From Actinopolymorpha alba DSM 45243 (GTDB lineage Bacteria; Actinomycetota; Actinomycetes; Propionibacteriales; Actinopolymorphaceae), in contig NZ_KB892790.1 of assembly GCF_000373925.1 (NCBI RefSeq), forward strand, positions 62,436-126,435: 64,000 nt of DNA, read 5' to 3'. Each line of letters opens with the position of its first letter. Positions within the stretch are counted from its first letter, which is position 1. The translations under genes and the position numbers were made by a program. The notes beneath the pieces are model-generated. The model searched no databases and was not told the DNA's origin. It was given only the letters and a program-made list of their open reading frames with translations. Below are positions 4,399-17,182 of the stretch, one piece after another.

Positions 4399-4593
4399 AT
4401 GTCAGAACCGCGGCCATGGGTGGCGAACTGGGGCGCTACGAAGGGGACGGACGGTGATCGGCCGGACCTCGCGCGGCTGGCCGCAGCGGCGCATGACCTC
4501 ATGCTCGTCTGGGATCGGACTGGGAGCCAGCTCATAAGGCATGGTTCTGAGGCGTTGCGACGCTGGCATTGGTCCATGCAACCCGCGTCTTAG
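4399..4593 (+). CDS. Possible 64-residue hypothetical protein
   Basis: The frame from ATG 4399 has acceptable codon use and could form two helices (DLARLAAAAHDLMLVWDRT). It has no clear ribosome site and no family match I know. Its end overlaps the stop of the leftward STAS gene by four bases. Apart from this weak candidate, the possible peptide at 4182 and the hairpin, 3987-4590 holds nothing I can support. Confidence 0.25.
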   Translation: MSEPRPWVANWGATKGTDGDRPDLARLAAAAHDLMLVWDRTGSQLIRHGSEALRRWHWSMQPAS

Positions 4594-4991
4594 CCGCTGT
4601 GTGTGTTGTCAGGATCGCTCGTTGGGGGGACGGTGGGCTCCAGATTTGGGGCGCTGCCTAGCGTGGCGAGGGCGGTTTCGATGTCGGGGTAGACGGTGAT
4701 GGCCTCGCAGGGGTTGCCCTTCGGCATTGGCTCGGCGATGAGGCGGGGGCCGCAGAGTGTCAGGGGCCGATTGTGTAAGGCGAGGCGTGTGGCGGCGTCG
4801 AGGACAGCGGTTTCGCCCTCTGCGCTCCAGCCGTGTAGGTCGGTGAGGTCGAGGATGATGGGGCCGGTTCCGCGGGCGAGCGCCCAGCCGATTGCTCCAG
4901 CGAACTTGTCGATAGCACGCTCGCCGAGGTAGCCGGTGAGGCGGAGGACGGCGACGCCGCACCGAGCTTCGTGTTGCCATTCGAGGGTCAC
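4590..4991 (-). CDS. STAS-domain protein, anti-sigma-factor-antagonist type
   Basis: GTG 4991 gives about 133 residues and is preferred over GTG 4997 because AAGGAG lies 8 bases upstream and the start overlaps the previous stop as GTGA. The protein follows a STAS fold: CGVAVLRLTGYLGERAIDKF, then GPIILDLTDLHGWSAEGETA, then a helix and NRPLTLCGP. In antagonists the serine or threonine after the central strand is the phosphorylation site; here W-S-A-E-G occupies that place. No partner kinase or sigma factor is adjacent, so the partner is unknown. The C-terminus is a disordered Pro/Thr tail. It is coupled to the zinc-ribbon gene. Confidence 0.75.
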   Translation of the reverse strand: MTLEWQHEARCGVAVLRLTGYLGERAIDKFAGAIGWALARGTGPIILDLTDLHGWSAEGETAVLDAATRLALHNRPLTLCGPRLIAEPMPKGNPCEAITVYPDIETALATLGSAPNLEPTVPPTSDPDNTHSG

Positions 4992-5227
4992 GGGCACCGC
5001 TCCTTGCCGGTGTCGTTGTCCTGGTCTGTTGGTGGACGTGAGGGTCCGGCTGCCTGATTCGCGGGAAGTAGGCGGAAGGTCCCGCCTCCGTTGAACTGAA
5101 GGAGACGGGGGTGGCCGCAGCGGGGACAGCCGATGGCCGTGGCGTGGGCGGCTGGGCTGAACACTGCTCGGCAGGCGAGGCAGAGAAGTCGTACGGCGTT
5201 CGCGCCGAGGATCGGCGTCACTCGCAT
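4988..5227 (-). CDS. Small zinc-ribbon protein
   Basis: ATG 5227 follows AAGGGGG, so a longer reading from 5269 is unlikely; the product is 79 residues. It has two CXXC knuckles, CLACRAVFSP and CPRCGHPRLL, spaced as in a single zinc ribbon, followed by a disordered Asn/Asp/Pro tail. Such ribbons bind nucleic acid or protein and the role here is unknown. Its stop overlaps the STAS start by four bases (GTGA), so the two form one operon. It is divergent from the ArsR/redox operon, with overlapping palindromes between them. Confidence 0.65.
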   Translation of the reverse strand: MRVTPILGANAVRLLCLACRAVFSPAAHATAIGCPRCGHPRLLQFNGGGTFRLLPANQAAGPSRPPTDQDNDTGKERCP

Positions 5228-5342: not shown

Positions 5343-5459
5343 GTGCGGATTGAGCTGTTCGTCCTCCTCACCGTCGCGTCCGCGGGCGGCGTGCGTTCAG
5401 GGGGCGAGGGTGCTTTGGTGCGCGCGGCAGGGGAGCGTCTGCGGGGGTGGTTGCGGTGA
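5343..5459 (+). CDS. 38-residue micro-protein coupled to the ArsR gene
   Basis: GTG 5343 follows GGAGGG with good spacing. The product has a short hydrophobic start (RIELFVLLTVASAG) and a basic helical end (RAAGERLRGWLR). Its TGA at 5457-5459 overlaps the ArsR GTG at 5456 as GTGA, the same coupling used by other gene pairs here. No family is recognised. It may be a real small membrane-associated peptide or only a leader that couples translation into arsR. Confidence 0.4.
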   Translation: MRIELFVLLTVASAGGVRSGGEGALVRAAGERLRGWLR

Positions 5460-5788
5460 CCGCGCCGCTGTATCAGTTGAAGGCTGAGTTCTTCAAGACG
5501 TTGGGGCATCCGGCCCGGATTCGGGTGTTGGAGCTGCTCAGTGAGCGTGAGCACTCGGTGGCGGAGATGCTGCCGGAGGTCGGTATCGAGCCGCCGAATC
5601 TGTCGCAGCAGTTGGCGGTGTTACGGCGGGCCAATCTGGTGGTGTCCCGCAAGGAAGGGTCGACGGCCTACTACCGGTTGACCAGTCCGCAGGTGGCTGA
5701 GCTGTTGGCGGTCGCGCGGGCGATCTTGACGGGCGTTCTGTCGGGTCAGATGGAGCTGCTGGAAGACCTGCGGGCAGCCGAGGCATAG
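5456..5788 (+). CDS. ArsR/SmtB-family repressor (Rv0081-like)
   Basis: The product is 110 residues from GTG 5456 (MTAPLYQLKAEFFKTLGHPA). The winged helix is complete: ARIRVLELLSEREHSVAEML, then NLSQQLAVLRRANLV as recognition helix, then SRKEGSTAYYRL as wing. The classic SmtB/ArsR metal cysteines are absent, so the signal is probably not As or Cd sensed through the alpha-3 site. Sequence style and position match M. tuberculosis Rv0081, a hub regulator of the hypoxic response that precedes a hydrogenase-like operon. By analogy it should control the six genes downstream and itself. GTG 5447 is an alternative start; the GTGA overlap favours 5456. Confidence 0.88.
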   Translation: MTAPLYQLKAEFFKTLGHPARIRVLELLSEREHSVAEMLPEVGIEPPNLSQQLAVLRRANLVVSRKEGSTAYYRLTSPQVAELLAVARAILTGVLSGQMELLEDLRAAEA

Positions 5789-5871
5789 GTCTCGACGAAC
5801 CGCTCCGTGTTGTGGGTGTGCTGGCACATCGGCGTGCCGACGGAACGTTGGGGTTGGCACTAGGGAGAGTC

Positions 5872-6366
5872 GTGGGCGTTGCCAGGGGTTTGCTGCGCCG
5901 GATCCGGGCGACAGGGCGGATTGCCGAGCCGGCGCCGGCCGCGGCGCCGGAAGGTCTGCCCGAGGGTGTGGGCGATCTGGCGGGCTCGGTGCAGGTTCGG
6001 CATGTCGATGCCGGGTCGTGCAATGGGTGCGAGATCGAGATCGGGCAGGCGTTCGGTCCGGTGTATGACGCCGAGCGGTATGGCGCGCGGCTGGTGGCCT
6101 CGCCCCGTCATGCTGATGCGCTGCTGGTGACTGGGCCGGTGACCCGCAACATGGCGGAGCCGTTGCGCCGTACCTATGAAGCGGTTCCGGGTCCGAAGCG
6201 GGTGGTCGCGGTCGGTGACTGTGCGCGGAACTGTGGTGTGTTCGCGGGTGCGTACGGCGTGGTGGGCGCGGTCGGCGATGTCGTACCCGTTGACGTCGAG
6301 GTGCCAGGCTGTCCGCCGCCACCGGACGCGATCGTCGCGGCGCTGCGGGGGTTGACCGGTCGATGA
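5872..6366 (+). CDS. Small (NuoB/HycG-like) Fe-S subunit of the hydrogenase-like complex
   Basis: This subunit would carry the N2-type [4Fe-4S] cluster that passes electrons between the large subunit and the membrane arm. From GTG 5872 (AGGGAG upstream) it has 164 residues; GTG 5812 would add 20. Cluster cysteines are visible: C50 and C53 in GSCNGCEIEIG, C117 in VGDCARNC and C147 in VPGCPPPP, the NuoB pattern. Length and position match Rv0082. The N-terminus is basic and not a Tat signal, so it is a cytoplasmic-face subunit. Its stop overlaps hyfB as ATGA. All cluster ligands are kept, in contrast to the large subunit, which has lost its metal ligands. Confidence 0.88.
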   Translation: MGVARGLLRRIRATGRIAEPAPAAAPEGLPEGVGDLAGSVQVRHVDAGSCNGCEIEIGQAFGPVYDAERYGARLVASPRHADALLVTGPVTRNMAEPLRRTYEAVPGPKRVVAVGDCARNCGVFAGAYGVVGAVGDVVPVDVEVPGCPPPPDAIVAALRGLTGR

Positions 6367-8420
6367 ACCTCGCAGGTGTGGGGTTGGCGGCTTCGCTTGG
6401 CATAGCTGGGCTGGGCGCGCTGACGGCCGTGGTATTGGGCGAGCGTGCCCGGGTAGTGATCGCCGGCGCTTGTACGGCGGTCAGCGGGATCGCCGCGGTC
6501 ATCGCCGGTATCGCGGCGCTGGCAGGGCAGTCATTCGCGGTGGAACTGCCGGATCTGCTCCCGTTGTTTGGCGTACGGCTCGTGCTCGATCCGCTGGGCG
6601 GGCTGTTCGTCGCGGTCACCGGTGGCGTCGCGGTCGCCGCGGCTATCTATGGGATCGGCTATTCCCGGCACGGGTTGTCCGGGCGCGGGGTGCAGGCGCT
6701 GCTGCCGTTGTTTGTCGCGGCCATGGTGCTGGTGCCGGTCGCGGCGAGTGTCGGCACGTTCCTGCTGTGTTGGGAATTGATGGCATTGGCCTCGCTCTTG
6801 CTCGTGGTGGCAGAGCACCGCCGGCGGGCGGCGGTGGCCGACGCTGGCCTGTGGTAGGCGGTGATGACCCATTTCGGCGTGGTGGCGATCGTGATCGGGC
6901 TGATGCTGTTCATCGCCCACGCCTCGAGCGACACGTTCGCGTCTTTACGGCAGGCTGGCGCAGAGCTTTCACCCGCGGTCAGGAGCACCATTTTTCTCGC
7001 GGTTCTGGTGGGGTTCGCGTCGAAAGCAGGAGCGGTTCCGTTGCATGCGTGGCTACCGCGGGCTCATCCCGAGGCGCCGAGCCAGGTGTCGGCGTTGATG
7101 TCGGCGGCGATGGTCAATCTCGGCGTCTATGGCATCGTCCGGGTCGGATTCGACCTGCTGGGTGGTGGGCCGCGGTGGTGGTGGCTACTCGTTCTCGTCG
7201 TCGGCGCGGTATCGGCGGTGTATGGCATCTTGCAGGCGGCGATGACTTCCGATCTGAAGCGGCTGCTGGGTTATTCCACGACTGAGAACCTGGGGCTGGT
7301 TCTCATCGGAGTCGGTGCCGCCGGTGTGTTCGCCTCCGCTGGCGCCCACGTCCTAGCTGGACTCGCGCTCACCGCCGCTCTGCTGCATGTGATCAACCAC
7401 GCCGCATTCAAGACGTTGCTCTTCCTGTCTGCCGGATCGGTCCTGCACGCAACTGGACTTCGTGACCTGGATGGATTGGGTGGGCTGCGGGCTCGGATGC
7501 CAGTCACCACCGGGTTATTCGCGGTGGGAGCACTCGCGGCGTCCGCATTGCCATTGGGTAATGCGTTTGTCAGCGAGTGGCTGCTGTTGCAGAGCTTGGT
7601 TCATGGGCTGCCGGTGTCGGGGGTGGCGACCGCCATCACCATGCCGGCGGCGGTGGCGGTGGTAGCGCTGACGGCCGGACTTGCGGTGGCGACCTTCGTG
7701 AAGGCATTCGGTATCGGCTTCCTGGCACGGCCGCGTAGTAGCGCCGCCGAGCGGGCGACGGAAAGTCCGGTCAGCATGCGTGTCGGGATGGGTCTCGCTG
7801 CCCTGGCCTGTGTGGCGCTGGCCGTTGTGCCCGCGATGGTGATGCCGGGGCTGGCCCGGGCCGCCGGCGCGGCCGACTCGATGCTGGGGGAGCCGGCGGT
7901 CCGGGGTGCGGTGACGCTGCGGCTGGCTGGGTTCGCAGGTTCGTTGTCGCCGCTGCTTGTGACGGCGGCGCTGCTCGTAGGTGTGGCCGCGGTCGTGGCC
8001 GGGCTGCGGCTGGCCACGGTACGCCGCACCCGGCACGGACGCCTGACACACCGCGCACGCCCAACTCGTCGAGACGCACGGCTGTGGGACTGCGGCGCTG
8101 GTCCGCTGACCGCCCGGATGGAGTACACCGCGACGTCCTTCGCTGAACCCCTGCAGCGGGTCTTCGACGATGTACTCGAACCCGAACAGGATGTTGACGT
8201 CACCCACCTGCAGGAGTCCCGCTACCTCGTGGACAGCATCGAGTATCGGCGCCGGGTGCCCGATCGGATCGAACGCCGGCTCTACCAGCCGCTGCTCGCG
8301 TTCGCGCGGGCGTGGGGTCAGGCCGGTCGGCAGCTTGCGACTGGCAGCGTGCACCGCTACCTCGGCTACGGCTTCTACGCTGTTGCCGGGCTTCTCGTCG
8401 TGTTGGCGGTGACGCGGTGA
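6363..8420 (+). pseudogene. hyfB: hyfB-type antiporter-like membrane subunit interrupted by an amber codon
   Basis: One frame of 686 codons runs from ATG 6363 (ATGA overlap with the previous gene) to TGA 8418-8420, broken only by TAG at 6855-6857, codon 165. Both sides are plainly one protein: about 14 membrane segments, a Mrp/NuoL-like motif PLHAWLPRAHPEAPSQVSAL after the stop, and a long C-terminal lateral region ending in a last helix. At the stop the reading is LW-stop-AVMTHFG; homologues usually have Trp-Tyr there, so one base change (TAC or TAT to TAG) explains it. An internal GTG at 6861 could restart translation but would lose the first five or so helices. Either the subunit is not made, or this is a sequencing error. 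Confidence 0.85.
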
Positions 8421-9367
8421 CCGGCGTGACAGGGGCGTTGGGCGCCGTCCTGCAGGTCGCCGTCATTGCCGTCGGCTCGCCGTATCTGGTTGGTGCGATG
8501 CGGCAGGTACGAGCCCGCCTGGAAGGGCGGGCCGGCCCAGACGTTGCCCAGCCGTGGCGGGATCTGCGCAAGCTGCTACGCAAGGAATCCTTGACACCGC
8601 ACGGGACCAGCGAGGTGTTCCGGCTCACTCCGGCGGTCCTTGTCGCCAGCACTGTGTTGGTGGCCGCAGTGGCGCCGTTTCTTACCACCGCGTCGCCGCT
8701 GGATCCCGTTGCGGATCTGTTCGCCGTGGTGGCGTTACTAACCTTGGGTACGGTCGCGCTGGCGCTGGCCGGTATCGATACGGGTACCGCGTTCGGTGGG
8801 ATGGGCGCCAGCCGGGAGATGACCATCACCGCGCTGGTGGAGCCCACTCTGCTGGTCGCCATCTTCGCGCTGTCGGTACCGGTCGGCTCCACCAACCTGG
8901 GCGCGATCGTCAACTCGACCTTGCACGATCCGGCCCGGGTGGTGTCCCCGGTCAGTTTGCTCGCGGCCGTCGCGCTCGCTGTCGCGATCATCGCCGAGAC
9001 CGGCCGGCTGCCGGTGGACAACCCGTCCACGCATCTGGAGTTGACGATGGTGCATGAGGCGATGGTGCTGGAGTACGCCGGGCCCGACCTCGCGCTGGTC
9101 GAGTGGGCCTCGGCGATGCGGTTGACGGTGTTCCTCGGGCTGCTCGCGAACCTGTTCGCCCCGTGGGGAATCGCCACCGGATCAGGCCTGGCCGGGCTGG
9201 TCCTGGCGGTCATCGTCTTCGCCGTCAAGGTGGGGTTGCTTGGCCTCCTACTCGCGGTCGGCGAAGTGTTCCTGGCCAAGCTGCGCCTGTTCCGGGTACC
9301 CGAGCTGTTGGCCGGGTCGTTCCTGCTTGCCCTGCTTGCCGTTGCCGCGTCCTTCTTCCTCGCCTAG
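8417..9367 (+). CDS. hyfC: hyfC/hycD-type membrane subunit (NuoH-like)
   Basis: GTG 8417 overlaps the hyfB stop as GTGA and gives 316 residues with about eight membrane helices. This is the NuoH/HycD homologue that links the Fe-S arm to the proton- or sodium-pumping antiporter arm. The conserved loop ETGRLPVDNPSTHLELTM, with its acidic residues, is the family hallmark near the quinone-like cavity in complex I. The order and coupling match Rv0084. A longer upstream reading from 8312 is not used because it would run inside hyfB. Confidence 0.9.
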   Translation: MTGVTGALGAVLQVAVIAVGSPYLVGAMRQVRARLEGRAGPDVAQPWRDLRKLLRKESLTPHGTSEVFRLTPAVLVASTVLVAAVAPFLTTASPLDPVADLFAVVALLTLGTVALALAGIDTGTAFGGMGASREMTITALVEPTLLVAIFALSVPVGSTNLGAIVNSTLHDPARVVSPVSLLAAVALAVAIIAETGRLPVDNPSTHLELTMVHEAMVLEYAGPDLALVEWASAMRLTVFLGLLANLFAPWGIATGSGLAGLVLAVIVFAVKVGLLGLLLAVGEVFLAKLRLFRVPELLAGSFLLALLAVAASFFLA

Positions 9368-9391
9368 GCACCAACGTTCGGTGGAAAGCTG

Positions 9392-10054
9392 ATGACCCAG
9401 ACCACGTTCTCACAACTCCTCTACCTGGCTTGCGGGGCGTTCCTGCTCGCGGCCGTGCTGGTGCTATGGCGCCGGGAACTGGCGGCGATCGTCCGCCTGT
9501 TCGCCCTACAGGGCGTCGCGCTGACCGGCATCGTCGCTGTTCTCGCCGCCCATGAACGCTCGCTGGAGCTGGGGCTGGTCGCCGCGGGTATCGCGGGGCT
9601 GCGTGCGGTGCTGCTGCCGTACCTGGTCCGGCGAGCACTCGACCGCGCCGGGCCCGGCCGGGAGACCAAGCCGCTGGTCAACGTGGCCGCGTCCCTGCTG
9701 GCCGCGGCGGTCCTCACCTTGGTGGCATACGCCGTGTCCCAGCCGCTCATCGCGCTCGCTCCCTCCCCGGCCACCCGCGCGGTGCCGGTCGGCCTTGCGG
9801 TGGTGCTGATTGGGTTCTTCGTTCTGGTCACCCGACGACGAGCGCTGTCCCAGGTGGTCGGGTTCTTGCTGATCGACAACGGCATCACCGCCATCGCCTT
9901 CCTCACCACCGCGGGCGTTCCACTCATCGTCGAACTCGGCGTCTCCCTCGACGTGCTGTTCGCCGCGCTTGTCCTGCAGGTGCTCACCACCCGGATGCGG
10001 GCGACGTTCGGCCATACCGACCTGGATGAGCTGAGGGAGCTACGCGACGCATGA
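9392..10054 (+). CDS. hyfE: hyfE/hycP-type membrane subunit (NuoK-like)
   Basis: The product has 220 residues and about six to seven hydrophobic helices. It starts at ATG 9392, 24 bases after hyfC. HyfE proteins contain a NuoK-like core: LLYLACGAFLLAAVLVLW at the start and VVGFLLIDNGITAIAFL in the middle. The acidic residue in LLIDNG lies in a membrane helix, as expected for an ion path. It matches Rv0085 in order and length. It is part of the membrane arm that, in related complexes, couples electron transfer to ion movement. Confidence 0.88.
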   Translation: MTQTTFSQLLYLACGAFLLAAVLVLWRRELAAIVRLFALQGVALTGIVAVLAAHERSLELGLVAAGIAGLRAVLLPYLVRRALDRAGPGRETKPLVNVAASLLAAAVLTLVAYAVSQPLIALAPSPATRAVPVGLAVVLIGFFVLVTRRRALSQVVGFLLIDNGITAIAFLTTAGVPLIVELGVSLDVLFAALVLQVLTTRMRATFGHTDLDELRELRDA

Positions 10055-10130
10055 GCGAGCCAAGCGAGCGAACCATTCAGTACAGCGAGTGGCGTGCCCC
10101 ATGGGCGCCCGGAGCGGAGCGAGGACGCGG

Positions 10131-11651
10131 ATGAGCTTCACCCTGCTGATGCTTGCTCCGGTGCTGATCCCGGCCCTGGGTGCGGTGACGTGCGCCGTGT
10201 TCGGCTGGCGCCGCGCAACCGCGTGGATTGGCGTTGCCTGCGCTGCGGCGGTCCTGGCCGCCGGAGTCGTGCTCGCGGCCGAAACCACGCTCACCGGGCC
10301 GCGTACGAGTCTTGGCGGACAGCTGCGGGTGGACGCGCTGAGCGCGTTCATGCTGATCGTGATCGGGGCGATCTCGGTGCTCGCCACAGCGGCCAGCCCG
10401 GCCTGGCTGCGCACCGAGATCACTGCGGGCCGGGCCAACCACCGGAGCGCCCGGTGGCACAGCCTGCTGGTCCAGGCGTTCGTGGCGGCCATGGCGCTGG
10501 CGGTGCTCGCCGCGAACCTCGGCACCGTGTGGGTCGCGGTCGAGGCCACCACGATCATCACCGCGTTCCTGGTCGGGCAGCGGCGCACACGCGCAGCGGT
10601 CGAGGCGGGGTGGAAGTACGTCGTGATCTGCTCGGTCGGCATCGCGCTCGCCTTCCTCGGTGCGGTACTCCTCAACTACGCCTCGGCCCATGCCGGAGCC
10701 GCTGGCGCAGGGTTGGCGGGGAACCGCCTGGACTGGGCGGCACTCGCCGCCGGAGCGCACAGCCTCGACCCGGGAGTCACCCGCATCGCGGTGGCGCTGC
10801 TGATCATCGGATTCGGCACCAAAGCGGGCCTCGCTCCCCTGCATGCCTGGCTCCCCGACGCGCACGGGCAGGCACCGGCACCCGTTTCCGCGCTGATGTC
10901 TGGGGTGTTGTTGTCGGTCGCGTTCTACGCGATCCTTCGGGTGAAGGTGATCGCGGACGCCGCTCTCGGGGTGGCCTTCACCCGAACCCTGTTGGCCGTG
11001 ATCGCCCTTGCCACATTGGCGATCGCCGCGTCACTGCTACTCGCCCAACGCGACTACAAGCGGATGCTGGCCTACTCCAGCATCGAGCACATGGGGTTGC
11101 TCGCGCTCGGTGCGGCGGCGGGAAGCCGGCTTGCGCTGGCCGCCGTACTCCTGCACGTTCTCGGACACGGGCTGGGCAAAGCCGTCCTCTTCCTCAGCTC
11201 CGGACGCATCCTGCAGGTGACCGGCACGAGCCAGATCGGCAAGGTACGCGGCCTTGCGACCCGTCAACCGCTCCTTGCCGGCTGCTTCGGGCTCGGCGTA
11301 CTCGCCCTGATTGGTCTGCCGCCGTTCAGCCTGTTCGCGAGCGGCTTCGGTATCGCCCGGGCCGGCTTCGCCGAGGGTCTTGGCTGGGTGACGGCCGCTT
11401 CGTTCGTGTTCGTCCTGGTGATCGCAGCGGCCGTGCTCACCCACACAGGTCGAATGCTGCTCGGCCCCCCACCCCCATCCGACGCGCCGGCCACGGACCC
11501 CGCCGACCGCGGCGCCGTCAACCTGGCCCTGCCAGCCTCCGGCGCCGTTCCCCTGCTCGTCGGCCTGACCGCCTGCGCCGCCCTCGGTATCACGTTGGGA
11601 CCGCTGCAACAGCTCCTTCACTCCGCGGCCACCCTTGTGGGGACACCATGA
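10131..11651 (+). CDS. hyfF: hyfF/hycQ-type antiporter-like membrane subunit
   Basis: ATG 10131 follows GAGGA and gives 506 residues; a GTG reading from 10089 lacks support. About 13-14 membrane helices are present. The motif PLHAWLPDAHGQAPAPVSAL is the conserved NuoM/N/Mrp signature with a buried lysine and histidines in the neighbouring helices (GTKAGLAPLH). It is the second antiporter-like subunit of the complex besides HyfB and matches Rv0086. Its last bases overlap hyfG as ATGA. If HyfB is truly broken, this remains the only intact pump-like subunit. Confidence 0.9.
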   Translation: MSFTLLMLAPVLIPALGAVTCAVFGWRRATAWIGVACAAAVLAAGVVLAAETTLTGPRTSLGGQLRVDALSAFMLIVIGAISVLATAASPAWLRTEITAGRANHRSARWHSLLVQAFVAAMALAVLAANLGTVWVAVEATTIITAFLVGQRRTRAAVEAGWKYVVICSVGIALAFLGAVLLNYASAHAGAAGAGLAGNRLDWAALAAGAHSLDPGVTRIAVALLIIGFGTKAGLAPLHAWLPDAHGQAPAPVSALMSGVLLSVAFYAILRVKVIADAALGVAFTRTLLAVIALATLAIAASLLLAQRDYKRMLAYSSIEHMGLLALGAAAGSRLALAAVLLHVLGHGLGKAVLFLSSGRILQVTGTSQIGKVRGLATRQPLLAGCFGLGVLALIGLPPFSLFASGFGIARAGFAEGLGWVTAASFVFVLVIAAAVLTHTGRMLLGPPPPSDAPATDPADRGAVNLALPASGAVPLLVGLTACAALGITLGPLQQLLHSAATLVGTP

Positions 11652-13270
11652 CCGACACCGTGAACGACGCCATACCTGACAACGTCTCTGGCAACGGCCA
11701 CCACGACGCCACGGCGAGCGCCGGCACGGTTACGCAGCCGCACGGGCAACCTGTTGGCCATCGCCGTACCGCTCTCACCATCACGCCCGCGCAGCTGCCC
11801 GACCTGGCCGCCGGCCTGCTCAGCGAAGGGTTCCGGGTGGCGCTGGTGGCTGGCCATGATGATGGCGAGAGCCTCCGGGCGGTGTACCTGTTCGTCGCGG
11901 CCCAGCCGGACCGCCGGGTGGAGCTGCACCTGCCGCTGGAGGCGGGCAAGCCGCACGTACCCAGCCTGGCCGCCATGTCGTTCCCCGCTGGCCGTTTCGA
12001 ACGGGAGATGTACGACCTGTTCGGGATCGTCCCCGATGACCACCCCCTGCCGGCTCGCCTGGTGCGGCACTTCCACTGGCCGCGCGGCTGGCACCCGATG
12101 CGCCGCGACGCCGGTGATCCGCCTGGGTTCGGTGACATCGAAGGCCCCTATCCGTTTCGGACCGTCGAGGGGCACGGCGTCTATGAGATACCCGTCGGTC
12201 CTGTCCACGCCGGGCTTATCGAGCCTGGCCATTTCCGCTTCTCCGTCGTTGGCGAGACGATCCTCAACCTCAAGGCCCGCCTGTGGTTTGTCCACAAGGG
12301 CGTGGAGAAGCTCTTCCACGGACGCACACCCGAGGAGGGCATTGAACTCGCCGAACGGATCAGCGGCGACACCGCGGTGGGCCACACCCTGGCCTTCTGC
12401 CTGGCCGTCGAGGACGCACTCGGCCTAGACGTGCCACCGGCCGCTTGCGCGACGCGAGCGATCCTGCTCGAACTCGAACGCATCTACAACCACATCACCG
12501 ACATCGGTGCCCTCTGCAACGACGTCGGCCACGGCATCCTCAACGCCCACGCCCAACACATCCGCGAACAGCTGCTGCGCATCAACGCGCACCTGACCGG
12601 GCACCGGCTGCTCCGAGGCGCGATCCGACCCGGCACCGCAAACCTTCGCCAAGCGCCCGACCTAAACCAGCTGGCAGCCATCGCCACCGACATCGACGAC
12701 ATCGCAGGCCTGGCGCTTGGCCACACCGTCGTACGGGAGAGATTCACCGGCACCGCGATCCTCAACAACCAGCAAGCAGCCGACCTCGGAACCCTCGGCT
12801 ACGTCGCCCGCGCCAGCGGAATCGACATCGACGCCCGACGTGATCACCCGTTCCACCGTCTCGGGCCGAGCTTCGCCGTGCGAACCCACACCGACGGCGA
12901 TGTCCTCGCCCGATTCCTCGTCCGCGCCGAGGAAATCAAAACCAGCGTCGCAATGATCGCCGAACTTCTCGATGACAACCTCACCTTGACACCGGCGTCG
13001 GAGCCGAGCAAGCACACGGGCCACCTCGAGGTACGCGCTGGAACTGCGGCGCAACCACGATCCGGTGTCGGCATCGCCGAAGGCTGGCGCGGCACCATCA
13101 CCCACCGAGTCGAACTCGACACCCACGGCGTCCTCACCCGAGTCAAAGTCGTCGACCCGTCATTCTTCAACTGGCCAGCACTACCCGTCGCCCTCGCCGA
13201 CACGATCGTCCCCGACTTCCCCCTCACCAACAAAAGCTTCAACCTCTCCTACGCCGGCAACGACCTCTAG
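11648..13270 (+). CDS. hyfG: Hydrogenase-like large subunit without Ni-binding cysteines (hyfG/hycE type)
   Basis: ATG 11648 overlaps hyfF as ATGA and gives 540 residues. It is a NuoC+NuoD fusion as in HycE: a NuoC-like part (EREMYDLFGI at 118-127, then DDHPLPARLVRHFHWP) and a NuoD/[NiFe] large-subunit-like part. A true [NiFe] hydrogenase has R-x-C-x2-C and D-P-C-x2-C. Here the first site is ERISGDTAVGH (236-246) and the second is DPSFFNWPAL (503-512), so all four nickel ligands are missing. It therefore cannot bind the NiFe centre and is best called energy-converting hydrogenase-related. It matches Rv0087 in position. The substrate of the complex is unknown. Confidence 0.88.
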   Translation: MTDTVNDAIPDNVSGNGHHDATASAGTVTQPHGQPVGHRRTALTITPAQLPDLAAGLLSEGFRVALVAGHDDGESLRAVYLFVAAQPDRRVELHLPLEAGKPHVPSLAAMSFPAGRFEREMYDLFGIVPDDHPLPARLVRHFHWPRGWHPMRRDAGDPPGFGDIEGPYPFRTVEGHGVYEIPVGPVHAGLIEPGHFRFSVVGETILNLKARLWFVHKGVEKLFHGRTPEEGIELAERISGDTAVGHTLAFCLAVEDALGLDVPPAACATRAILLELERIYNHITDIGALCNDVGHGILNAHAQHIREQLLRINAHLTGHRLLRGAIRPGTANLRQAPDLNQLAAIATDIDDIAGLALGHTVVRERFTGTAILNNQQAADLGTLGYVARASGIDIDARRDHPFHRLGPSFAVRTHTDGDVLARFLVRAEEIKTSVAMIAELLDDNLTLTPASEPSKHTGHLEVRAGTAAQPRSGVGIAEGWRGTITHRVELDTHGVLTRVKVVDPSFFNWPALPVALADTIVPDFPLTNKSFNLSYAGNDL

Positions 13271-13791
13271 GCCGCTTCCACGACAGTTTCAGGTGGTGGG
13301 GAGAACCGGCGGCCCGCAAGGTCGGGGGCCTTGCGCGCACTCGCGTTCTGCTTCGTCGTGCAACGGCGTTTTCTGCGCCGTCTGGCCACCAGATTCTGTT
13401 CGGCCATCAACACGGCCACGGTGTTCTTGCTCACCGCCCACCCCATCTCCACCAGGTCGGCCTCCACCAGGTCGGCATGGATACCTGGGGAACCCGCGCA
13501 GCCCTTCCGCTGGTGGAACCGCCCCCTGACCAGCGCAGCCAGTACCCTGCGCCTGGCCCTACGCGGCGAGGTGTCCTCACCTACCCACTTGTAGAACCAG
13601 GATGTGGAAACCCCCAACGCCCGGCAGGCCACCGCATGGGGTATCCCGTGCTCGCTCCTCTGAGCGGCGATGAACCTGGCCACGCTTACTGGCCCATCGC
13701 TTCTTTCACCCAGAGGGCCACGGCTCCGGCGCGAGCTTCGAGTTCCTACGCCCGCACGATCTACGGCTCCCAGAACAGCAGGCGTCAGCAC
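13267..13791 (-). mobile_element. Truncated IS3-family orfB (transposase) remnant
   Basis: The leftward frame holds the start of an IS3-type OrfB: from GTG 13683, ARFIAAQRSEHGIPHAVACR, then LGVSTSWFYKW (HTH_21 part), and GWAVSKNTVAVLMAEQNLVA before the DDE core. The frame stops at 13267, right after the hyfG stop, and the whole DDE catalytic domain is missing. The remnant is inactive. It sits exactly at the 3' end of the redox operon, so an insertion and later deletion probably set this boundary. No terminal inverted repeats could be identified. Confidence 0.7.
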
Positions 13792-14894: not shown

Positions 14895-15239
14895 TCACGC
14901 GGCCGATCGCTTGCGCGCGGGCGGCTTCGACGTAACCTTCTTCGTTCCGGCTGGGCCTTGAATCGTCACGTCCAGTCGCCCACCAACCGCCCGGACATAA
15001 CGCTGGAGGGTGCTGAACTGCGGATCGGTCGCTCCACTTTCCAACTCCGACACCGCCGACTGAGTGCTCCCCATCGCTCGAGCAACCTCAGCCTGACTCC
15101 TGCGGCTCTCCTTGCGGAGACGCACGCAACGGGCGAGGAGATCCGCACGAGCCTGCGCATCCTCATAGGCCGCGGCGAACGCGGGATCATTCCGCTGCTC
15201 GTCGAGGAAAAGGTCCAGATCATCCCGGCGCGAGCCCAC
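14895..15239 (-). CDS. Xre-family antitoxin of a HigB/HigA-type pair
   Basis: The product is about 114 residues. GTG 15239 has AGAGGA 9 bases upstream; GTG 15248 would touch that site. The N-terminus is acidic (RRDDLDLFLDEQRNDP), typical of a toxin-wrapping segment. Next comes a Cro/C1 helix-turn-helix (RRSQAEVARAMGSTQSAVSEL), then QFSTLQRYVRAVGG. The tail is Lys/Arg rich. It should neutralise the upstream toxin and repress the operon. A perfect palindrome in the spacer before it is the likely operator. The order toxin first, antitoxin second is the HigBA order. Confidence 0.82.
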   Translation of the reverse strand: MGSRRDDLDLFLDEQRNDPAFAAAYEDAQARADLLARCVRLRKESRRSQAEVARAMGSTQSAVSELESGATDPQFSTLQRYVRAVGGRLDVTIQGPAGTKKVTSKPPARKRSAA

Positions 15240-15310
15240 GTCTGGCACTCCTCTATGTCCGATTTGCCCAACACGCCCGACTGGAGGCTACCTGAGGTCC
15301 GGAACCATGA

Positions 15311-15328
15311 TATCGGTTGTAACCGATA
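15311..15328. promoter_or_regulatory. 18-bp palindrome between toxin and antitoxin, candidate operator
   Basis: TATCGGTTGTAACCGATA has 8-bp perfect arms around a two-base centre. It lies in the roughly 100-base gap after the toxin stop and before the antitoxin start. In HigBA-type loci the antitoxin binds such dyads. Its place inside the operon suggests an internal antitoxin promoter, which would let antitoxin exceed toxin. Confidence 0.5.
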
Positions 15329-15340
15329 ACCGCAGCATGC

Positions 15341-15691
15341 TCAGACGCGGCGGCCACGCCAATCACGGAGCCGACGCTCAGCGAGCCTTCTGGCCGGCGG
15401 CGGCAGCTTTCTGTCCTTCTTCTGGAACACATGCAGGCCGAGCAGGATGTGATCGCGGGCGCCTTCCCTGGCGTAGAGCATCCGGTAGGTGCAGCCATCC
15501 AGGAAGACCCGCACGGCGAGCAGGTCACCGTCGAGGTGTTCTTGCTCGTACGGGAAATGCTCGCGACGCGCGACACGCTTCATCGCTTCGGCCACGGCAG
15601 CTCGCGCCTGTACGCCCAGCGACTCAAGCTCCTCGCGGACGACATCTCTGCCGTTAGTTGTGCGGTAGAAGCGCCAACGGACCGCGCTCAC
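15341..15691 (-). CDS. RelE/HigB-like (phage Gp49-like) toxin
   Basis: The product has 116 residues, starting at GTG 15691, which overlaps the integrase stop as GTGA. The fold signs are those of the Gp49/DUF891 RelE superfamily: VRWRFYRTTNGRDVVREELE, a middle helix pair and YRMLYAREGARDHILLGLHVF followed by KK and RK basic residues. Proteins of this group cut mRNA on the ribosome. The basic C-terminal residues needed for RNA binding are present. Coupling to the integrase gene is unusual and ties its expression to the element. Confidence 0.82.
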   Translation of the reverse strand: MSAVRWRFYRTTNGRDVVREELESLGVQARAAVAEAMKRVARREHFPYEQEHLDGDLLAVRVFLDGCTYRMLYAREGARDHILLGLHVFQKKDRKLPPPARRLAERRLRDWRGRRV

Positions 15692-17013
15692 GTGACGGTT
15701 CCCCGAGGCCAGCCAGCCTCCTCCTCCGAATCAGCCGCAGCCGAGCCTGTCCCTGGTGATCTCGCCTGCCGTGCCGGCATCACCCTGCGAGCGAGGATGT
15801 CGGCGGCGAGCTTGTCTGATTCGGCGACCCAGGCGGTGTAGACGCGGAGCGTAGTCGTTCCTCCTCCGCCGTGACCGAGGCGTCCAGCTACCGTGCGGAC
15901 GTCCACGCCGGCGGTGATGAGTTCAGTCGCGGAGTAGTGCCGCAAGGCATGCAGATGGGTATCGATGCCGAGCCGATCAACCATCGCTTTGTAGCGGTGG
16001 CTCACCCCGTCGGGATCGCACGGACGGGCGTGATCGGGCTGGTAGGAGAACACGAACGCATCATCTCGTGGACCCTCGTCGAGAACCCGTACCTGCTCTT
16101 CGTAGCGGTCGCGGTGTACGCGTAGGAGTTGACAGGTGTCGTCGTCGAGCGCGATCCGACGAATCTGGTGGGTCTTGGTGTCCTTCTCGATGCCGTCAAC
16201 GTAGTTGCGGCGGATCTCAAGCATGCCGGTGTCAAGGTGGACGTCGTGCCACCGAAGGGCGACGATCTCGCCACGCCGGGCGCCGGTAATCATGGTCAGC
16301 CAGACCAGCGTGCCCCAGGCCTGGTCCTGCCCCATGGCGGCCTCGACCAGTTGCGCTGCCTGTTTCGGTGTCGGCGGTTTCGGCGCGGGCTTCGGCTGCC
16401 TGGGCTTCTTGGTGACCTCGGCGGGGTTGTTCTGAATCCATCCCCACCTCACCGCAGTCGACAATGCTCCGCTGATGATGACGTGCGTCTCTCGAATCGT
16501 CGACGCGGCATACGGCCGACACACATGCGCCTTGCACGTACGCCTTGTCGACTTGTCGTCGGCATGGCAGTCGTGCGGTTTGCTCGTTCGATGCTCGACG
16601 TTCGGCTTTCCATCACAACGTGCCCTACACCGGCGAAGCTCGGCATAGAACTCCTCCAGCACCCGAGGGGTGATCTTCGCAACCGGCACGTGCCCAAGGG
16701 CCGGCTTGATCCTGGTCTCCGCCGCGCGGCGGTACCCGGCGAGGGTGCTGGGGTCGGCCTCGTGCACCTTCAGCCAGGCATCGAGGACGTACGCGAGAGT
16801 CGCCTTGGTGGCGGCCTGGCGTTGTTGATCGACCTGGGCGAGAAGGCGGGTCCGGATCTTCTCGGCCTTGCGCTCGTCGCGGGTGGACTCGGTGAGGTAG
16901 CTGTCCTTGCCGGTCAGAGGGTCGACGCCGGCGTAAACCCGGACCTGGAATGAGTTTCCCCGCTTGCGCACGGACGCGCGAGTCCGGGGCGTTCGTCCGG
17001 CTTTGCCTGGCAT
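15688..17013 (-). CDS. Tyrosine site-specific recombinase (integrase) beside tRNA-Thr
   Basis: The product has 441 residues. It has an N-terminal arm-binding part (RASVRKRGNSFQVRVYAG), a SAM-like core-binding domain (about 70-205) and a catalytic domain with R246 (GARRGE), H355 and R358 (HALRH), H381 (GRLGHGG) and Y392 (LRVYTAW). The active site is complete. Between about 129 and 165 there is a Cys/His-rich insert (CRARC, HDCHADD, CKAHVC), which could bind zinc. It lies just downstream of tRNA-Thr on the same strand, so the tRNA 3' end is the likely attachment site. It is coupled to a toxin and is probably functional for integration and excision. Confidence 0.9.
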   Translation of the reverse strand: MPGKAGRTPRTRASVRKRGNSFQVRVYAGVDPLTGKDSYLTESTRDERKAEKIRTRLLAQVDQQRQAATKATLAYVLDAWLKVHEADPSTLAGYRRAAETRIKPALGHVPVAKITPRVLEEFYAELRRCRARCDGKPNVEHRTSKPHDCHADDKSTRRTCKAHVCRPYAASTIRETHVIISGALSTAVRWGWIQNNPAEVTKKPRQPKPAPKPPTPKQAAQLVEAAMGQDQAWGTLVWLTMITGARRGEIVALRWHDVHLDTGMLEIRRNYVDGIEKDTKTHQIRRIALDDDTCQLLRVHRDRYEEQVRVLDEGPRDDAFVFSYQPDHARPCDPDGVSHRYKAMVDRLGIDTHLHALRHYSATELITAGVDVRTVAGRLGHGGGGTTTLRVYTAWVAESDKLAADILARRVMPARQARSPGTGSAAADSEEEAGWPRGTVT

Positions 17014-17069
17014 GAGGAAAGTGTACTCGTGGACAGAGCCATGGACAGTACTCGGACGTGGGGAGGAAG

Positions 17070-17102
17070 AAGGCCAGGTCGAATGCCGTCTGACCTGGCC
17101 TT
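17070..17102. terminator. Bidirectional hairpin between tRNA-Thr and the integrase gene
   Basis: An 11-bp perfect stem (AAGGCCAGGTC / GACCTGGCCTT) with an 11-nt loop. On the plus strand a short T-run follows. On the minus strand it lies 8 bases after the tRNA 3' end, so it probably ends the tRNA transcript. It also marks the junction between the tRNA and the integrated DNA. Confidence 0.6.
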
Positions 17103-17109
17103 TTATCTG

Positions 17110-17182
17110 AGCCAGCGAGGGGACTTGAACCCCTAACCGCCCGATTACAAGTCGGGTGCGCTACCAATTGCGCCACGCTGGC
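17110..17182 (-). tRNA. tRNA-Thr (anticodon TGT)
   Basis: On the minus strand the 73 bases fold as a cloverleaf. The acceptor stem is GCCAGCG / CGCTGGC with discriminator T, the D arm contains TTGGTAGC, the anticodon loop is CTTGTAA with anticodon TGT, and the T arm carries GGTTCAAGTCC. No CCA is encoded. The integrase gene follows at its 3' side, so this tRNA is the probable attB. A second copy of its 3' end was not found in the window. Confidence 0.95.

Follow-up and report, generated by a model that had tools for sequence, protein, structure and literature searches.

An energy-converting hydrogenase-related complex without nickel ligands, and with an interrupted hyfB gene, in Actinopolymorpha alba

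The window analysed here is a stretch of 64,000 nucleotides from Actinopolymorpha alba DSM 45243 (contig NZ_KB892790.1, positions 62,436–126,435), taken from a 7.98 Mb actinobacterial assembly that is 95.9% complete. Seven genes (arsR, small subunit, hyfB, hyfC, hyfE, hyfF and large subunit) occupy positions 5456–13270 on the + strand. Judged by its sequence, the complex that they encode belongs to the energy-converting hydrogenase-related (Ehr) family, and within it to the six-subunit type of Mycobacterium tuberculosis Rv0082–Rv0087 accompanied by an ArsR regulator. The assignment rests on published descriptions of Ehr, the named Ehr proteins being compared by description only; a first-pass annotation of the window had not recognised this already published family. 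We propose, with a probability of about 0.6, that the Ehr complex would be a redox-driven ion pump acting on a new, non-hydrogen substrate. This reading follows from the lack of nickel ligands, of Hyp maturation proteins and of a C-terminal tail, and from the fact that the proton-path residues and the proximal Fe-S site are intact. The first-pass annotation had also favoured an ion-translocating redox complex over a formate hydrogenlyase (FHL), which is partly supported, as the best reading that we infer from these data. The window's complex is a further member of a family that is known but unexplained, and one of its subunits is likely broken or split in this strain; its relatives hold more surprising material than the complex itself.

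The features of the operon are the following.

5456–5788, + strand: ArsR/SmtB-type regulator in the Rv0081-type position, GTG start, no cysteine (Pfam HTH_5, NCBIfam HTH_metalloreg)
5872–6366, + strand: EhrS small subunit, HycG/NuoB-like (Pfam Oxidored_q6), alternative start at 5812; cysteine codons C50 at 6019, C53 at 6028, C117 at 6220 and C147 at 6310, extra conserved C121 at 6232
6363–8420, + strand: hyfB, antiporter-like subunit, interrupted, in pieces 6363–6857 (164 amino acids and TAG) and 6861–8420 (519 amino acids)
6855–6857, + strand: in-frame TAG, codon 165 of hyfB, with possible GTG and ATG restart codons at 6861 and 6864
8417–9367, + strand: hyfC, NuoH-like membrane anchor (Pfam NADHdh), with conserved E134, E142, E194, D201, E208, E214, E219 and E229
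9392–10054, + strand: hyfE, hydrogenase-4 membrane subunit E (NCBIfam hydrogenase 4 membrane subunit)
10101–11651 (start 10101 or 10131), + strand: hyfF, antiporter-like subunit (Pfam Proton_antipo_M, NCBIfam hydrogenase 4 subunit F)
11648–13270, + strand: EhrL large subunit, 540 amino acids, with fused NuoC-like and NuoD/HycE-like parts, without nickel cysteines and without C-terminal tail
12353–12385, + strand: first ligand region ERISGDTAVGH, residues 236–246
13154–13183, + strand: DPSFFNWPAL, residues 503–512, a conserved second-sphere region and not the second CxxC site
13241–13267, + strand: true second ligand region NLSYAGNDL, residues 532–540, at the extreme C-terminus (HycE counterpart DPCYSCTDR)

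The list of open reading frames and the Pfam and NCBIfam matches agreed with the gene content, order and coordinates given earlier. Hydrogenase 4 subunit B was the top NCBIfam match of both halves of hyfB.

The register of the former nickel site was taken from phmmer alignments with Escherichia coli HycE and Pyrococcus furiosus MbhL. MbhL C68 and C71 aligned with S239 and T242, and MbhL His75 with H246, where the histidine is kept. The second cysteine pair mapped to the extreme C-terminus (HycE SLDPCYS versus SFNLSYA in the window). The relatives that possess cysteines gave the same C-terminal register, with NKSFELCYACCDR versus NKSFNLSYAGNDL and LINKSFELCYACCDR versus LTNKSFNLSYAGNDL. Of the two motif regions singled out in the first-pass annotation, ERISGDTAVGH is indeed the first ligand region, but DPSFFNWPAL corresponds to HycE ATYANWPTL, and the second site is NLSYAGNDL. 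The four nickel-cysteine positions are occupied by S239, T242, S534 and G537. All four [NiFe] cysteines are gone, as had been claimed, and CxxC is missing from the window's large subunit and from each of 80 orthologs.

These orthologs come from a single genome-contig scan in which at least 266 relatives were found, 80 loci being kept for comparison (81 large subunits with that of the window). Residues S239, G240, D241, G245, H246, N528–N532, Y535, G537, N538 and D539 showed no variation in this set, and S534 a single exception. The near invariance of the replacing residues SGDT and NKSFNLSYAGNDL argues for a maintained site and not for decay. The [NiFe] ligands have given way to polar residues that hardly vary (S239-G240-D241-T242, H246 and N532-L-S-Y-A-G-N-D-L), and this is one part of the sequence basis of our proposal. 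The large subunit stops directly after the motif, without the tail used by the maturation protease, and the HycE-like proteins in the same alignment have 33–44 extra residues. HycE was the top match in the PDB both by sequence (E 8e-50) and by fold, complex I coming next by fold. No second complete large subunit that might pair with the operon was found in the genome, the only other relative being a complex I-type NuoD homologue.

The first-pass annotation had listed no maturation genes, and neither HypD nor HypC was found in this genome or in that of A. pittospori, a congener with the same operon used as comparison genome. Of the 28 genomes of the order that carry Ehr, 13 were without HypD, and one of these, G040, showed a match to HypC; of 33 named Ehr-carrying genomes, 11 had no HypD. 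As the Ehr genomes are mixed in this respect, the presence of Hyp elsewhere is uninformative; its absence indicates that Hyp is not needed.

When the small subunit was aligned with MbhJ and HycG, its cluster loop was ungapped, and the spacing of its CNGC motif is MbhJ-like. The Fe-S cysteines C50, C53, C117 and C147 named earlier are all present and conserved in the orthologs, to which a fifth, family-specific cysteine, C121, can be added (72 of 74 sequences). The charged residues of the proton path were conserved in at least 97% of the orthologs in HyfB (E138, K221, K299, K350), HyfF (E138, K231, K310, K350) and HyfC (E134 to E229). The antiporter-like and NuoH-like membrane subunits of an Ehr complex are thus present, though hyfB contains an in-frame stop. 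A scan for the ferredoxin motif C..C..C...C near the operon gave five scattered matches across the 80 loci, with the window free of any, and neither a formate dehydrogenase nor an NADH-oxidising module was seen among the open reading frames of the operon. The scan and the reading frames therefore bear out the earlier statement that a ferredoxin-like subunit and a formate dehydrogenase are lacking. No conserved electron-donor partner adjoined the operon in the 80 loci, regulators and stress proteins being found instead; the soluble partner envisaged in the first-pass annotation did not appear there.

In the mechanism that we propose, a soluble donor would dock on the small subunit, on the face that is covered by the ferredoxin-like subunit in complex I and FHL, and would feed the single [4Fe-4S] cluster. 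In the former metal cavity, a small organic or quinone-like substrate might react, and the resulting conformational and charge changes would pass via HyfC to the movement of protons (or Na+) by HyfF and HyfB. The loss of the nickel-binding residues implies that H2 is not produced by the known route, and the complex would neither make nor use H2. Several observations weigh against the proposal. The TAG in hyfB puts the function of the window's copy in doubt. In two related complexes (loci L147 and L153), nearly all proton-path residues are retained although three of the four Fe-S cysteines have been lost. Structure predictions of the large subunit, made once with 32 orthologs and once with 76, gave a usable overall fold, but the predicted local distance difference test score was below 50 over residues 161–216 and 508–540, which form the cavity. 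The alignment with HycE placed the ligand sites, but what fills the cavity, as the first-pass annotation had asked, could not be read from the models.

The stop codon was overlooked in the first-pass annotation. The sequence at 6849–6866 reads CTG TGG TAG GCG GTG ATG. At codon 165, 76 of 78 orthologs have a tyrosine, A. pittospori having TAC as the codon, and no second copy of hyfB exists in the genome. The ratio of nonsynonymous to synonymous changes (pN/pS) against A. pittospori was 0.28 in the 5' part and 0.29 in the 3' part of hyfB, 0.25 in hyfF and 0.27 in the large-subunit gene. The values for the operon genes range from 0.12 to 0.29, which corresponds to purifying selection. As the two parts of hyfB are alike and similar to hyfF and the large-subunit gene, the stop appears to be recent, tolerated, or a sequence error. 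It is possible that translation restarts at GTG 6861 or ATG 6864. The window's complex may be inactive, or may contain a two-piece HyfB if such a restart takes place. The stop and the possible restart lie within twelve bases (6855–6866), where, in a topology drawn by eye, a cytoplasmic loop meets a membrane helix.

A tentative but substantial alternative for the window's copy is a decaying pseudo-operon, in which the TAG does away with the complex and leaves the other genes as a remnant beside an insertion sequence (IS) element. The replacement of the conserved tyrosine codon, the IS-like fragment at 13270–13791 and the presence of the operon in only two of six sampled genomes of the genus would all fit this explanation. 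However, no further stop or frameshift was found across the seven genes, the pN/pS of the 3' part of hyfB matches that of the 5' part, and the restart codons lie 4–7 bases past the stop.

A quinone-reactive enzyme that works like a short complex I, with menaquinone reduced or oxidised in the old metal cavity, appears unlikely. Respiratory complex I (NuoB/CD/H/L/M) is close to the window's complex in fold, in the sequence of NuoD/Nqo4 and in its proton-path residues, and has likewise lost all four nickel cysteines (PMC7684303). The residues involved in quinone chemistry differ, however. The quinone-binding Tyr87 of Nqo4 in complex I aligns with the invariant Gly240, and Nqo4 His38 with I191 or E192 (the roles of H38 and Y87, and that of MbhL E21 as the proton-donating glutamate of the membrane-bound hydrogenase MBH, are described in PMC11228991 and PMC7684303). 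E192, which is also the counterpart of MbhL E21, is Glu in 61 and Gly in 20 of the 81 sequences. Furthermore, the proximal-cluster motif is CxxC, as opposed to the adjacent cysteine pair of complex I, and the operon has no NuoE/F/G/I.

We regard as very improbable the reduction of sulfane sulfur or polysulfide at the proximal [4Fe-4S] cluster, as in the membrane-bound sulfane sulfur reductase (MBS) of P. furiosus (6u8y). MBS is another hydrogenase-derived complex that has lost its nickel ligands and is also without equivalents of Nqo4 H38/Y87 and MbhL E21 (PMC7684303); in addition, the ArsR protein resembles the BigR family, with a score below the family cut-off, and the extra cysteine C121 is close to the cluster motif. 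However, MBS needs a loop three residues shorter that frees one iron, whereas the window's loop is ungapped against MbhJ, keeps C50 and C53, and has the four-cysteine, hydrogenase-like ligation. MBS retains two of the cysteines (C85 and C385) and the ferredoxin-type MbsN, and the ArsR protein of the window has no cysteine for sensing sulfur species. An FHL or other H2-evolving enzyme, the frequent annotation of the M. tuberculosis operon Rv0082–Rv0087 (PMC6901956), has hardly any chance: the complex is homologous to HycE, HycG and the Hyf subunits, and shares with E. coli FHL (HycE/HycG, 7z0s, the top PDB match of the large subunit) and hydrogenase-4 the same membrane subunits, but nickel ligands, HypC and HypD, the processing tail, and ferredoxin and formate dehydrogenase subunits are all lacking.

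The published Ehr complexes are, like that of the window, relatives of group 4 hydrogenases without CxxC ligands and with antiporter-like subunits (PMC6349859, PMC4378227, PMC7894505, PMC10284858, PMC10432482), although regulator and neighbours may differ. Their function has been left open (PMC6349859, PMC4378227, PMC10284858, PMC10432482). The abundance of every Ehr subunit of Geobacter was higher with formate than under hydrogen-containing conditions (PMC7894505). The order ArsR, small subunit, HyfB, C, E, F and large subunit is that of M. tuberculosis Rv0081–Rv0087 (annotated as FHL-like and DosR/Rv0081-regulated), a match already pointed out in the first-pass annotation and borne out by the gene list in PMC6901956 and by two mycobacterial members (L056 and L087) that share the operon order, SGDT and NLSYAGNDL. 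In this comparison, made with the published gene list and not with the sequence, the window differs by its interrupted hyfB. Regulation of rv0082–rv0087 by the hypoxia-linked Rv0081 has been reported (PMC6901956).

The same gene order was observed in most of the 80 loci wherever the contig allowed, with a spread across Actinomycetota. The arsR gene was present in 64 loci, and its product was 57–90% identical in most loci having arsR upstream of the operon. The number of relatives, together with the pN/pS values, indicates that the operon is not a chance pattern. In a sample of the order, the large subunit was found in 29 of 397 genomes. Six-subunit homologues with approximately 40% identity were located on proteobacterial replicons of Cupriavidus, Paraburkholderia, Variovorax, Rhizobium, Azospirillum and Methylocalor, and carry SGDT/S or AGDT and NKS(F/V)N motifs; a closer homologue lies on a Rhodococcus plasmid. 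No annotated maturation genes were seen beside the proteobacterial and Rhodococcus-plasmid homologues. In Kutzneria sp. 744, a second, partial hyfF–large subunit pair stands in tandem (L027:1909–11012), and a further copy of the operon is present on the same contig (L064).

A maximum likelihood tree rooted on HycE-like proteins, which included the plasmid and named actinobacterial loci, placed a clade with cysteine pairs but without the tail beside all the cysteine-less clades. The cysteine-less sequences grouped together at moderate support (87/80). The program warned that long branches meet; the exact branching of the clades named SGTDS and AATTA is thus not secure. The sister clade has CGAC and CYAC pairs and no C-terminal tail (L115–L118, L120, L121, L124 and L127; fetched regions L137–L143). 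Where 8–20 kb were fetched, its loci showed the six subunits (one cut by the contig end), mostly with ArsR. HypD and HypC were absent in seven of the eight genomes whose cysteine motif was read. Among these seven, L115 has three cysteines only (CGAD and CYAC), and in G749 a further hydrogenase-family match was found, again without HypC/D. The eighth genome, G541, possesses HypD and HypC, plus another strong [NiFe] hydrogenase match. Cysteine pairs without the Hyp pathway suggest that these cysteines would, if this is confirmed, hold something other than the usual NiFe(CN)2CO centre.

Further losses were seen in the small subunit. Those of L147 (3946–4443, G711:C24) and L153 (4780–5256, G668:C6) are 71% identical to each other and have T, D and D in place of C50, C117 and C147 (motifs STNAC, GDDA and PGDPP). 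Their six-subunit sets are intact, and nearly all of their proton-path residues are kept (D308 of HyfF is Asn). Apart from the L153 gene, G668 gave a single weaker small-subunit-like match, probably NuoB. In the SGTDS clade (L145, L154 and L155), C147 is lost. The pattern in L147 and L153 argues that some members may not be driven by redox chemistry. It is conceivable, though quite unlikely, that the family lost its metal chemistry stepwise while the ion pump stayed intact, from cysteine pairs without Hyp, through the invariant polar pocket, to L147 and L153, which would be driven by substrate binding or conversion without metal redox.

Operons of this type, including the hypoxia-linked one of M. 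tuberculosis, are often named formate hydrogenlyase, though the key residues exclude nickel. The replacement pocket is nearly invariant in hundreds of soil actinobacteria as well as on plasmids of proteobacteria, which points to an energy-converting reaction that is widespread. How complex I lost its metal site, and whether such pumps need a metal at all, are questions on which the intermediate clades have a bearing.

Next to the operon, the IS-like fragment is situated between the large-subunit gene and a phage-type integrase adjoining a tRNA-Thr (15691–17182), with a Gp49/HTH pair (14898–15691) between the integrase and the operon. The operon was considered as the cargo of an integrative element at this tRNA-Thr, and this was rejected, no attachment repeat being found on the contig searched up to the window end. 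Upstream of the operon, a STAS-domain protein is encoded on the − strand (4590–4997). Seven other loci, mostly of Streptomyces, likewise have a STAS-like gene ahead of the operon, often with a transporter of the sulfate-permease family. In Pseudonocardiaceae loci (e.g., L028, L031, L045, L048 and L055), a protein of 70–110 amino acids without Pfam match is often encoded downstream of the large subunit, in a set with a malic-enzyme-derived protein and a GTP-dependent phosphoenolpyruvate carboxykinase, each gene occurring in 15–18 of the 80 loci.

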